A DNA stretch of 64,000 bases from Pilaira anomala (taxonomy: Eukaryota; Mucoromycota; Mucoromycetes; Mucorales; Mucoraceae), in contig JAIXMQ010000022.1 in NCBI GenBank assembly GCA_025716855.1, positions 310,001 to 374,000 on the forward strand, written 5' to 3'. Below the pieces are notes generated by a model. It was given only the letters and a program-made list of their open reading frames with translations, did not search any database and was not told the DNA's origin. The translations under genes were made by a program, and so were the position numbers. Positions 20,242-25,926 of this stretch are shown piece after piece; position 1 is the first letter of the stretch; each line of letters opens with the position of its first letter.

Positions 20242-21509
20242 TTAGTTATTATCTAAGAGAGGTCTACGTTGCTGATGATCGTCATTTTCAGTTGTAGGAG
20301 AGTCGTCTAATAAATCATAATCGTTTTTCTTCTTGTTGTTTCTAAAGTGTAAACAGCAAAAGACGTATACGATTGATTTCCATAAATTCAAAATTGCAGT
20401 CTTGATATCACCAAAAAGACTTGCTTTACCATCTACAATTCTTTCCGGTCTAAGTCTATGATGATTATCGATCAAAACTGTAACACAAGTCTAATGAAGA
20501 ATAGTTAGATATTTAATCGCTGAAAAAAAAATGAAAGAACTTACCACAACTGCGTTAAGAACACCTAAAGCAGTACTTGCAGAAATCATAAACATGATAA
20601 TTTGTTGATACATGACAGCATCTTTCATTGGAGTACCAGAAATCAACTGACCAGTCATCCTAAAATGAAGCAAAGAAATTAGAGGTTGAAAGTAAAAAAA
20701 AAAAAAAAAAAAAACTTACATTCCGGGAATAGCAATTAAACCAATAACTGACATTTGATTGATTGTAGGTAACATAGCTAATCTTACAGCTTCTACTGCA
20801 ATCGATTGTCCCGCTTCCCACCGGCTAGCACCAAATGCTAAATAAGTTTCAATTTGTTCCTTACGAGTACCTACACTCGATAGACAGCTACTGATAGCAA
20901 CAGCCATACCACTCATTGCATTACCTAGCAACATACCCATTGTTGGAATAAAAATCTCGGGTGTCCAAAATGGATCTTGGCCCATAGCATAACGAGAACC
21001 AACGATGCCCACTACAAGCGTAGATATACCAGAAGATATTAATACGGATAAGAACTAAAAAAAAAAAAAAAGATGATGAAATTGAGTCCATCATGTGTGT
21101 ATTGTCGGTTTATTCCCAAAGTTACTTTACCATGCCTTTATATGTTTGTTTGGATTTATTATAAACAGTTTCATAAGCTCCAAGGAAGATTAAAACAACT
21201 AGTGATAAAATTTAACGGTTAGTCTCGGAATACAAAAGAAGTTTAATATATACTTTACAGGTCATTAGCATGACGAGTGCTGGATGCCTTGTTTTAAAAA
21301 CGTCCTCTAGAATAAAACCCTATCGTTTGTAACTTATTAGTACTTAGTCGGACAATGATATTTCGAATAATAGTTTTACCATTAAGGTCAATTGAATTAA
21401 ACATCGAATAGCGGCTATAATCAAGCTTTTTTCAAGCTGTAAACCTAAAGCAAGTGAGATACCGCCTATATATATGTTTATGTGTCAGTCAGATAAGAGG
21501 GGAAAAAAT

Positions 21510-21897: not shown

Positions 21898-23374
21898 TTA
21901 TTTTTTATTACTTAGGAGATGAATAAACATGGCTAATTGAATAACGATAAAGAATCTAAAAAAGCGCCATACTAAATAAAAACTATCAAAAGGAACTTGG
22001 ACAATACGGTTTAACATGCCATGTGTTGGTTTATGTTGTACCATTGTTGTATTAAATTGAAATTGGTGTTGTTTACGATAAGATTCTACAGGAACAATTA
22101 AGCTATCATCAATCTTTAAGCTAGGATAGATAACTAGATCTTGTTTAATTTGTTTTCTTGTTCTTTGTTTTCGTCTAGGTGATGATACAGGCTGATCTGC
22201 TACAACTACCATTGTACTATTATTTAACTCAAAGTCAAGGGTTTGCAGATGCTGATGTTTATTATTACTGCTGATAGAAGAGGCCATCTGTAATTCAGAA
22301 TATAAACTATTATTCATCATATTTTGAGGTAAATGGTGATGATGATATACTTCTTCCTCTTCTTCTTCTTCGTCAGAGGAAGGATGACTTGTGGTTTCAG
22401 CAATTAAACTAGGTATTTGCTGATGACAATCATTTGTCAAGTTTAGTCTATATTCTTCGATCAAACCAGTTAATTGATGTATATGACTTTGTTGAAATTT
22501 AAATTGATTTTCAAGTTGAGTTATTTGCTCTTTTGTCTGTTGAACATGAGTAAATTGTGATTGCAATTGTTTGAGCTCAATGATCGTATCATGGAATTGA
22601 TGCTGGATTTGATCTTTTGCTTTAAATAATTGTTGATTTTGACTCATCATTTGTTCAATTTTAAAAGACAATTCGTTATAATCATCATCATTACTTCTAA
22701 TATTAGTAGTAGTTGTATCATTTGTTTGATTAGCAAAATCAATTTCTTTTACAATCATTTTTCTCAAGTATTCTTGACGATAGTCTTCATGTTGTTGAAT
22801 TTTTTCGTAAGCTTGCTCTAAAGATTGATAAAGTTCATTTACTTGAAATGTTAATTTTTGTTGCGAAGTAATATTTTGTCGGCTGATTTTTTCATTTGAT
22901 TCTAATGTGGCTTCATATTTCTTTAATAATTCAGCATTTTGAGATTCAAGTTGATGAATAGTTTGTTGGTTATTTTCCAGCTTATGTTTATAATGGTTAT
23001 CTGATGCTTGTTGATGAATATTAAATTCATCTTGCAAGATATTATATTTTTGTTCAAGTACAGTATTATTTTCTAATAAAGTTTTACCAACTTCTGCTGC
23101 AAGTTTAAGATCTACATGACATTTAAAAAAAAAGGTTAAAAAAGTTGGTTTATTTTAATTTAAATTTTTATTTACCTTTCTCCTTTTCTAAAAGTGAATT
23201 GATTGTTGTTTTAAAGATATTCTTCAATTCAGCTGGAGATCTTTCAACAATCCATGAATAAGAGGAAGCAACCGAAAATGTTGGTGAAGCAGGTTCGCGA
23301 AGACTGCTTTTGGTTTTCATAAAATGTTTGTTTAACAAACCATTTGTGTTAATATTTAAAGTTTTAGTGGGCAT
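21898..23374 (-). CDS. Coiled-coil protein with a BICD/BICDR-like CC1 box and C-terminal membrane tail
   Basis: Two exons (23374-23176, 23111-21898) close to 470 residues. At the splice junction the protein reads LLEKEKDLKLAAEVGKTLLE. This resembles the CC1 box (DLxLAAxLGKxLLExN) of BICD-related and HAP1/TRAK dynein adaptors, which binds the dynein light intermediate chain. It is followed by some 200 residues of heptad-rich, Gln-rich coiled coil. A Ser/acidic linker with HHHH follows, then a basic patch (RRKQRTRKQIK). The last 30 residues form a hydrophobic helix (VWRFFRFFIVIQLAMFIHLL) ending SNKK, so the protein looks tail-anchored. Inferred role: linking dynein-dynactin to a membrane cargo. 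The gene is divergent to the SET gene across 399 bp. The exact family is unproven; BICD-like is by motif. Confidence 0.72.
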
Positions 23375-23773: not shown

Positions 23774-25926
23774 ATGGCAGAATCACCAACTAGTATTTAT
23801 CTGAATTGGATAAAAGAAAACGGGGGACATTACAAGAAAATTGAGTTCAAGAATGGTACGATATTCTTTTTTTTTTATTAAAAAAAAAAAGCTTAATTTT
23901 TTTTTTCTCTTCTATTTGTAGATAGTCAAGGTGTAGGATGTGTTTATACAACAGAAACAGTCAAGGAAAATGAAAGTTTTGCTTCAGTTCCTTTTAAACT
24001 TTGTATTACAGAAAAGGTTGCACGCCAATCACTTCCTAATCTAACTGAATTTTCAGGACGTATCGTATTGTCCTTGTTCTTACTTTTACAAAAACAACTT
24101 GGAGAAAAATCTTTTTATTGGCCTTATATCAATATTCTTCCCAAAACGATTAAAACACCATTATTTTTCGATGAATATGACCTCAAGTTTATTGCCAATA
24201 CGAATTTAGAGTCTGCAGCAAGAGATAGAAAGGCTGAATTATACAAGGATTTTAATAGACTTTTAGAGAAGTTACCTGAAGGAGTTGATAAAAATGGCGT
24301 TTCATGGTACCACCTTTTTATTTCTTAATTAATATGCGCAAAGCTCCCTAAAAAAAAATGCATTGCATTTTTGTTTTATTATTATAGGGAAGATTTTCTT
24401 TGGTGTTATAGTGTTTATTCTTCAAGATCATTTCCATATCAATTAATTGATCCTTCTTCAACTGAAATATCCGAAGTATTATTTCCTCTGGTTGATTCGT
24501 TAAATCATAAACCAAATACAAAAATTACTTGGACTAGAAATGGCGATGTTGAAACAGGCTCTTTGTCATTTGTTTCTGGTCAAGTATTTGAAACAGGCGA
24601 AGAGATCTTCAATAACTATGGACCAAAGGTGCGCAAAAAAACAAATAAATATTTAGATGTTTATTAATCACTAACCTACTATCTATAGTCAAATGAAGAA
24701 CGTAAGCTCATGAACAAATAACACAAAAAATAATAATACTAACATAACATATTGTAGTGTTACTAGGTTACGGATTTTGCTTTGAGGTAAGTACAGTCAG
24801 TATATATATTTAATTTATATTAATAGTTTGTGTAGTACAATGAACATGATCATGTTGCATTAAAACCAAATTTCTCTAGGGATCCTAACCACGAAATCAA
24901 AATGAAAATTATCGAACAATGTAAAATAACATCAGGCAATGTGGATCCACTTACGTTTTATATTCATCGCCATCATATTCCAAACGTATTCTTTCAATTA
25001 ATGAGAGTATTAGTTATGAATAGTATGGAAACTGAATATTATTCAATTTGTTCAGATCCTCAATTATTAGATTTTGTTGGATACAGAAACGAACTCTCCA
25101 TGCTATCCATGACCTTAGCTCTTTTGAAGAATCGTCTGCATGCTTTAGAATTACCTTTAGATGTTGATATGAATAATATTACTTATTGGCAAAGATTTTG
25201 TTTAATGTATAGATCAGGTATATAAAATTTTAACTATTTTTATACTTGTTTTGCCTTATCAAGTAAATTGTATTTTTTATTTCATTTTATTAGGACAACA
25301 GGACATTTTTAGAATCACTTTAAAAAAAGTAGAGGAAATGAAACGTAATTTGATTCAAAAGATGTATCAAGATATTAAAGAAAATCGAATTGCACCCATT
25401 GCTCCCTTCTTGAGTATTGTTAATCCCGATCATCACCTATCAACCATTGAAATTGATAACAATAGTCCCTTTATCACTTTGGATATGGTTGTCATCACTT
25501 TAAAGAAATTATTAAATAAGAATACGAAATTTGCGGGTATAATTAATGAACTATTTGAAGACTTGGAAGAAGAAGCAGATATTGTTATAATGTTGTGTTT
25601 GATAAAAGAAAATTCAAATATCAACAGTGAATGGAGGGAATTTTTTGATAAAACATCAATTAATAGGTAAACATATAACTCCTTTAGTAAATCGATCTCC
25701 CTCCCCTTTCCCCTTTTGTTAATATAAAAACCATTCTAATATATTTCATAGTCAAGTAGTAGATGAATCTTTACAAGAAATGTATGAATCTATGATACCT
25801 GCTTTTGCAGAAGAATATCCAGAAGAATTTGATATCAACACATTTACTTTGGAAGCATTTGCTTGGGCTGACTCTCTTTTAAATAATTACTCAATTGATA
25901 ACCCATTATCAATTGTACCACTTTAA
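23774..25926 (+). CDS. SET-domain protein lysine methyltransferase (Rubisco-LSMT/RKM/SETD6-like)
   Basis: Eight exons (23774-23855, 23922-24306, 24388-24628, 24689-24701, 24758-24786, 24836-25217, 25294-25666, 25752-25926) close to 559 residues. Exon 4 is only 13 nt and exon 5 only 29 nt, yet together they encode the conserved SNEELLLGYGF of the post-insert SET core. Upstream are LNWIKENGGHYKK, ESFASVPFKLCIT and VLFPLVDSLNHKPN (the NHxPN motif) and FNNYGPK. After the SET fold comes an alpha-helical substrate-binding domain. This layout is that of RKM1/RKM4/SETD6 enzymes that methylate ribosomal proteins or other non-histone lysines with SAM as donor. The precise substrate cannot be read. Short exons make automated models prone to error here. 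Confidence 0.9.

Follow-up and report, generated by a model that had tools for sequence, protein, structure and literature searches.

The gene on the minus strand at positions 21898..23374 of the window (the whole 64,000-nucleotide stretch of Pilaira anomala DNA analysed here) probably encodes a membrane-anchored dynein-dynactin adaptor of the CC1-box class. This reading rests on the match of its CC1 region to BICDR1 and TRAK2, on three conserved modules, on the order and spacing of these modules and on the presence of some partner genes in the genome. An adaptor of this kind had been put forward in the original prediction; its CC1-box class and module layout are upheld at the level of sequence, and dynein activation keeps the status of a proposal, as that prediction had said. 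Dimerisation, binding of the dynein light intermediate chain (LIC) and of dynactin, motor activation, membrane insertion and the target membrane are inferred. The gene has the following features:

21898..23374, minus strand: whole gene from start codon to stop, two exons, 470-residue product
23176..23374, minus strand: exon 1, encoding residues 1–66 and the first base of codon 67
23112..23175, minus strand: intron of 64 nt, phase 1, with standard ends (GTAAAT...TGTAG)
21898..23111, minus strand: exon 2, from the remainder of codon 67 through the stop
23065..23188, minus strand: CC1 box EKEKDLKLAAEVGKTLLENN, residues 63–82, interrupted by the intron and predicted to bind dynein LIC helix 1
22723..23109, minus strand: first long helix, residues 68–196, predicted by AlphaFold with high confidence; predicted coiled coil
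22417..22692, minus strand: second long helix, residues 207–298, predicted by AlphaFold with high confidence; predicted coiled coil
22291..22311, minus strand: NSLYSEL, residues 334–340, Spindly-type motif following a disordered acidic break; predicted contact with the dynactin pointed end
21907..22017, minus strand: anchor helix, residues 432–468, WRFFRFFIVIQLAMFIHLL, with the basic end SNKK, located by conservation ranking and AlphaFold

Gene model and relationships of the CC1 box

The junction between the two exons yields EKEKDLKLAAEVGKTLLENN, corresponding to residues 63–82 of the 470-residue product, and places the AAxxG element (AAEVG, residues 71–75) at the start of the coil. That splicing creates a CC1-like box, as originally proposed, is borne out by the gene model, by the equivalent junction possible in three paralogs and by an annotated relative from Thamnidium elegans. 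The same codon and phase are usable for splicing in all three paralogs of the same genome, a second junction being likewise possible in the one on contig C146, and the T. elegans protein (P0002) is continuous over the junction. A further relative (P0007) crosses it within a single open frame on a 1505-nt contig, which is perhaps a transcript. As for the neighbouring genes, the stretch 20716–21054 of the window (minus strand, 121 bits), downstream on the same strand, belongs to a gene for a UPF0014 membrane protein, and the stretch 24836–25225 (plus strand), upstream on the opposite strand, belongs to a gene whose product has a Rubisco LSMT substrate-binding domain (22.1 bits against a cut-off of 21.6).

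Protein searches returned 60 relatives, and the CC1 box is kept in 54 of them, so the AAxxGK residues emphasised by the original prediction are retained across the family. Four of the six models lacking the box are truncated at the N-terminus. The other two are the public models P0020 (Gigaspora rosea) and P0041 (Entrophospora), in which the box is partly lost, apparently by a wrong splice choice at the junction.

We compared a 49-column CC1 profile with 177,635 distinct PDB sequences. The profile was built from 17 fungal members, namely the window protein, two of its three paralogs and 14 of the 60 relatives, all selected with the box present. The top five of its 16 matches at E≤10 were BICDR1, with four distinct sequences at E 1.1e-10 to 2.5e-10 and a composition bias of 1.0 bit, and TRAK2 at E 9.1e-6; the sixth match, SIR4, followed at E 0.1. 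The resemblance to the CC1 box of animal BICD-related and HAP1/TRAK adaptors was thus confirmed, and by this profile comparison the CC1 region shares a sequence relationship with BICDR1 and TRAK2. A family profile of 43 rows (the window protein and 42 of the 60 relatives; 18 were excluded as partial, near-duplicate or doubtful models, P0020 and P0041 among them) also placed BICDR1 first among the best 60 of its 87 PDB matches at E≤10. Its four distinct BICDR1 sequences scored E 1e-9 to 1.7e-8 with a composition bias of 37.5 bits, followed by Myosin-4 at E 9.9e-4, and TRAK2 reached just 0.14.

Single-sequence searches of the PDB gave smaller signals. The stretch of residues 61–136 returned five matches at E≤10, each of them BICDR1 or TRAK2, with modest E-values of 0.036–0.098, whereas a control stretch of the coil without the box (residues 211–286) returned six matches that included no adaptor, the best at E 2.1. 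BICD2 was the top of four matches at E≤1 for a Gigaspora relative (E 0.038), and the whole window protein matched nothing in the PDB at E≤1. Profiling the clade to which the window protein belongs gave 30 matches at E≤10, the best at E 0.023 and none of them an adaptor; in several rows of this profile the gene model begins at exon 2, so that the CC1 box is missing.

A chance motif was considered and ruled out by the CC1 profile search, by the box-free control stretch and by shuffling of the window protein, in which AAxxG arose in 727 of 200,000 shuffles and the fuller motif in none of 200,000.

Comparison with the curated Pfam profile HAP1_N (PF04849, cut-off 33.9 bits) gave a divided outcome. 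The single window protein scored 13.7 bits (E 0.037), below the cut-off, and none of 28 family members passed it, the best reaching 31.9 bits; the check that the original prediction had suggested therefore failed for the protein alone, and it is the family CC1 profile against the PDB that succeeded. Across sets of family members, 6 of 12 matched HAP1_N at E≤1, 4 of 6 at E≤0.1 and 10 of 10 at E≤0.01, the last ten having been hand-picked, several of them because they are listed in the database under PF04849.19; the best matches reach E 1e-7. A HAP1_N search of the P. anomala genome itself found no match, which fits a box divided by an intron.

These results also bear on whether the protein might be a golgin-like coiled-coil membrane tether, unrelated to dynein, with an AAxxGK element that converged on the CC1 box. 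Coiled coils are prone to loose matches, HAP1_N matches the single sequence weakly and the family-profile matches carry a large composition bias. However, the CC1 region alone, with its small bias, reaches BICDR1 at E ~1e-10, against 0.1 for the best non-adaptor, and the LIC helix is conserved, as is the Spindly-type motif. We consider such a tether very improbable.

Predicted coil and the Spindly-type motif

The AlphaFold model of exon 2 alone, computed from the 43-row alignment (mean pLDDT 73.9, pTM 0.30), contains two long helices with 221 predicted helical residues, equivalent to ~33 nm. Canonical adaptor coiled coils measure 35–39 nm (PMC9481740; for this and the other papers cited, statements refer to the passages accessible to us). 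The coil is interrupted at residues 197–206. In a crude shuffle-based heptad test of our own, none of 1000 shuffles did as well as the second segment, whereas 141 of 1000 equalled the first. Of the long coiled coil in the original prediction, the long helices are predicted, with heptad support for residues 207–298 only. In the search for HBS1, the heavy-chain binding site that adaptors carry in the coil, a conserved LExxN block was observed ~50 residues past the box. Beyond residue 298 the model shows a disordered break, followed by a short helix (residues 336–349) of low confidence (~66), which begins with the Spindly-type motif. The model of a Gigaspora relative, based on an alignment with 28 of the 60 relatives (mean pLDDT 66.5), has the parts in the same order, but its first helix is followed by ~60 disordered residues.

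The Spindly-type motif had been overlooked in the original prediction. It consists of LYSEL at residues 336–340, within NNSLYSELQ, and the pattern L[LMYHF]xE[LF] is found in 58 of the 60 relatives. Five of these, close relatives of the window protein, have histidine in the second position; the remaining two relatives read LLGDL. When nine-residue windows of exon 2 were ranked by conservation over the 43 rows, a procedure blind to motifs, the CC1 box came first, the anchor (WRFFRFF) second and LYSEL third. The pattern by itself is cheap (P 0.41 per shuffled protein), so its weight rests on its conservation among relatives. Published definitions differ in breadth. The motif has been described as LΘXEΘ, where Θ is aliphatic or aromatic, situated past a coil break and binding the dynactin pointed end (PMC9481740), alternatively as LxxEΦ (PMC11623564) and more narrowly as xLF/AxE (PMC11310688). 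LYSEL agrees with LΘXEΘ; most family members, the window protein included, do not conform to the narrower xLF/AxE.

From A71 of the box to L336 of the Spindly-type motif the distance is 265 residues. The corresponding elements of TRAK1 lie at 125–139 and 373–379, a spacing of 248 (PMC10746525), and dynein activation by TRAK requires both motifs (PMC10011603). The predicted order and spacing of the modules match those of known adaptors.

The protein could instead be a membrane-anchored dynein tether that binds LIC through its CC1 box and assembles no active dynein-dynactin. HBS1 has no confident identification in the coil, the coil is interrupted in both the window and the Gigaspora models, and the CC1-like box of NuMA, judged unlikely to participate in the complex (PMC11623564), is a precedent for such a motif going unused and a reason for caution. 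Against this, the Spindly-type motif is conserved nearly as well as the box and the anchor, and the coil length and module order suit activating adaptors. On balance we find a passive tether rather improbable and retain the reading as an activating adaptor.

Predicted membrane anchor, family and partner genes

The C-terminal hydrophobic helix of the original prediction is recovered by AlphaFold, with ten-residue confidence means up to 94 in mid-helix and 50 to 80 near the ends. Its hydrophobicity is only moderate (best 19-residue Kyte-Doolittle mean 1.71) and arginines are present; because of these two properties the anchor might rest on the membrane rather than cross it. The anchor motif was identified in 50 of the 60 relatives. 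Of the other ten, six end earlier and three have a GPD tail with an altered core; the model of the tenth is doubtful.

Tail charge separates the window subfamily from most of its relatives. All 12 subfamily sequences with the anchor motif have a tail charge of +2 or +3, whereas the other 38 motif-bearing sequences average −2.1 (range −4 to +3); relatives outside the window's clade mostly end in a GPDxxL-like sequence, and the window protein ends in SNKK. Used as a query in its own genome, the window tail found itself, the paralog on C146 and one weak match (E 0.099), and nothing else. Tail-anchored proteins targeted to mitochondria or peroxisomes typically carry a short helix of moderate hydrophobicity that ends in basic residues. 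The basic tail of the window subfamily, set against the mostly acidic tails of relatives, suggests a different target membrane, and our guess is that the window paralog may serve mitochondria or peroxisomes where the relatives serve the endoplasmic reticulum or nuclear envelope.

A basic tail of this kind would also suit a TRAK-like two-way adaptor, one that binds kinesin-1 as well and works on mitochondria, attached by an anchor of its own rather than through Miro. TRAK2 is moreover the second adaptor in the CC1 profile search. BICDR1, however, outscores TRAK2, Miro persists in the genome, and the basic charge of the 12 subfamily tails is set against the negative mean of the other 38. We therefore regard a TRAK-like role as unlikely and keep to the dynein-dynactin adaptor.

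All relatives that carry an organism name come from Mucoromycotina or Glomeromycotina. They include Umbelopsis, Gigaspora, Rhizophagus, Paraglomus and Ambispora, genera that we take to belong to these two groups, and also Mucorales. The protein search requires shared exact words and its queries were drawn from Mucoromycotina and Glomeromycotina; because of the shared-word requirement, the lack of hits from Dikarya and animals does not show that the family is missing there. When 30 members from outside the window's clade were combined into a profile, it matched the window protein with 170 bits, and box, coil, Spindly-type motif and anchor were collinear. Four members with a CC1 box were identified in this genome, on contigs C135 (the window), C146, C150 and C160. 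In a tree of 29 rows (25 of the 60 relatives, the window protein and its three paralogs), the window subfamily forms a group of nine rows (support 100/100) whose branch is long, at 2.7 changes per column; the deep forks are weakly supported. Judged by these comparisons, the window gene is one member of a Mucoromycotina/Glomeromycotina family and not a lone oddity.

A further relative in the genome has the anchor only (locus L016 of contig C223, 777–2306, minus strand). It keeps the anchor (WCRF...KGPED) but lacks a CC1 box and any clear Spindly motif. It scores 43 bits against the 30-member family profile and matches no Pfam domain at E≤0.01. Its sequence might represent the anchor minus the motor-binding part.

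Two dynein LIC genes, on contigs C135 and C24, both encode the adaptor-binding FFxSLL helix (HEVLANFFQSLLSKK and HEVLNNFFLSLLSKK). Adaptor binding by human LIC1 requires the FF as well as the LL of helix 1 (PMC6336354), and both pairs are retained in the two fungal helices. One of the LIC genes shares the window's contig, ~110 kb away. The gene for dynactin p62 was also identified in the genome. The p25 subunit is present as the weakest partner match, in short exon pieces only, and its model also matches 4 of 14 control bacterial and archaeal genomes, one of them above the cut-off. Miro is present as well, and there are two HOOK_N matches, on contigs C46 and C175, so Hook may be duplicated too in this genome.

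Points that speak against the adaptor reading include the HAP1_N misses, the window-clade profile without an adaptor, the bias of the family-profile matches with TRAK2 at 0.14, the interrupted coil and its first segment in the heptad test. They also include the cheap Spindly-type pattern, its histidine in five close relatives and the low confidence of its helix, the moderate hydrophobicity of the anchor, and the NuMA precedent. Under the mechanism that we propose, the coil would dimerise and the paired CC1 boxes would catch LIC helix 1. The coil, ~33 nm long, would run alongside the dynactin filament, and the Spindly-type motif past the break would dock on p25 at the dynactin pointed end. The C-terminal helix would insert into the organelle membrane and tie the complex there, so that the organelle itself would recruit and activate dynein with no Rab or Miro intermediary.

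Comparison with known adaptors

BICDR1 (BICDL1), the top PDB match of the family, has the CC1 box KEKDLVLAARLGKALLERN where the fungal protein has EKEKDLKLAAEVGKTLLENN. The BICDR1 chain also carries TSLLSEIEQSM, ~230 residues beyond its box, which we take as its Spindly motif and which is close to the family's SLLSELENEW, although HMMER left the two SLLSE motifs unaligned. The fungal family differs in its coil break and C-terminal anchor. To our knowledge, BICDR1 has no membrane anchor, and fungal Hook has neither a CC1 box nor an anchor. Hook (HookA, Hok1) is the dynein-dynactin adaptor that the review literature names for fungal cargo; it uses a Hook domain and works in the FHF complex on early endosomes (PMC7649786).

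TRAK reaches mitochondria via Miro, unlike the fungal family with its own anchor, and the TRAK1 spacing of 248 residues between box and Spindly motif compares with 265 here (PMC10746525). The link to TRAK2 lies in the CC1 box match (E 9.1e-6); the TRAK/HAP1 profile HAP1_N, as noted, is passed by none of the 28 fungal members.

A KASH end is PPPX-type, and the C-terminus of the fungal family, SNKK or GPDxxL-like, is not. The closest parallels in layout are nevertheless the animal proteins KASH5 and ZYG-12, which share with the predicted layout of the fungal family a long coil, a LIC-binding N-terminus and a C-terminal membrane anchor. They carry an EF-hand and a Hook domain, respectively, instead of the CC1 box of the fungal family, and the five Pfam matches of the window protein at E≤10 include neither EF-hand nor Hook. 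KASH5 and ZYG-12 are described as transmembrane, which set them apart from the other activating adaptors known at the time of that report, and KASH5 activates dynein (PMC10071310). Nesprin-2 has related motifs near its membrane anchor, but in reversed order and outside a typical coil, and its recruitment of dynein needs BicD2 (PMC11310688).

The original prediction had described a CC1-box protein anchored directly in a membrane as a different solution. Set beside KASH5 and ZYG-12, a membrane-anchored adaptor as such was already known; what is new is the CC1-box class joined to a membrane anchor in fungi. The literature searched, consisting of titles, abstracts and passages with most subscription journals outside its coverage, held no description of a fungal CC1-box adaptor. 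If the reading is correct, the CC1-box adaptor class would not be confined to animals, and the fungi concerned would include arbuscular mycorrhizal symbionts. A single protein joining the anchor to the dynein-dynactin docking sites would also connect organelle and motor in the simplest way. Given that these sites are short and conserved, the claim could be tested using one peptide and a single point mutation. We give about even chances to a wider proposal, in which Mucoromycotina and Glomeromycotina would own membrane-built CC1-box activating adaptors as a third class beside KASH5 and ZYG-12, and Mucorales would have multiplied the family and altered its tail, giving organelle-specific dynein activators that work without a Rab, FHIP or Miro step.
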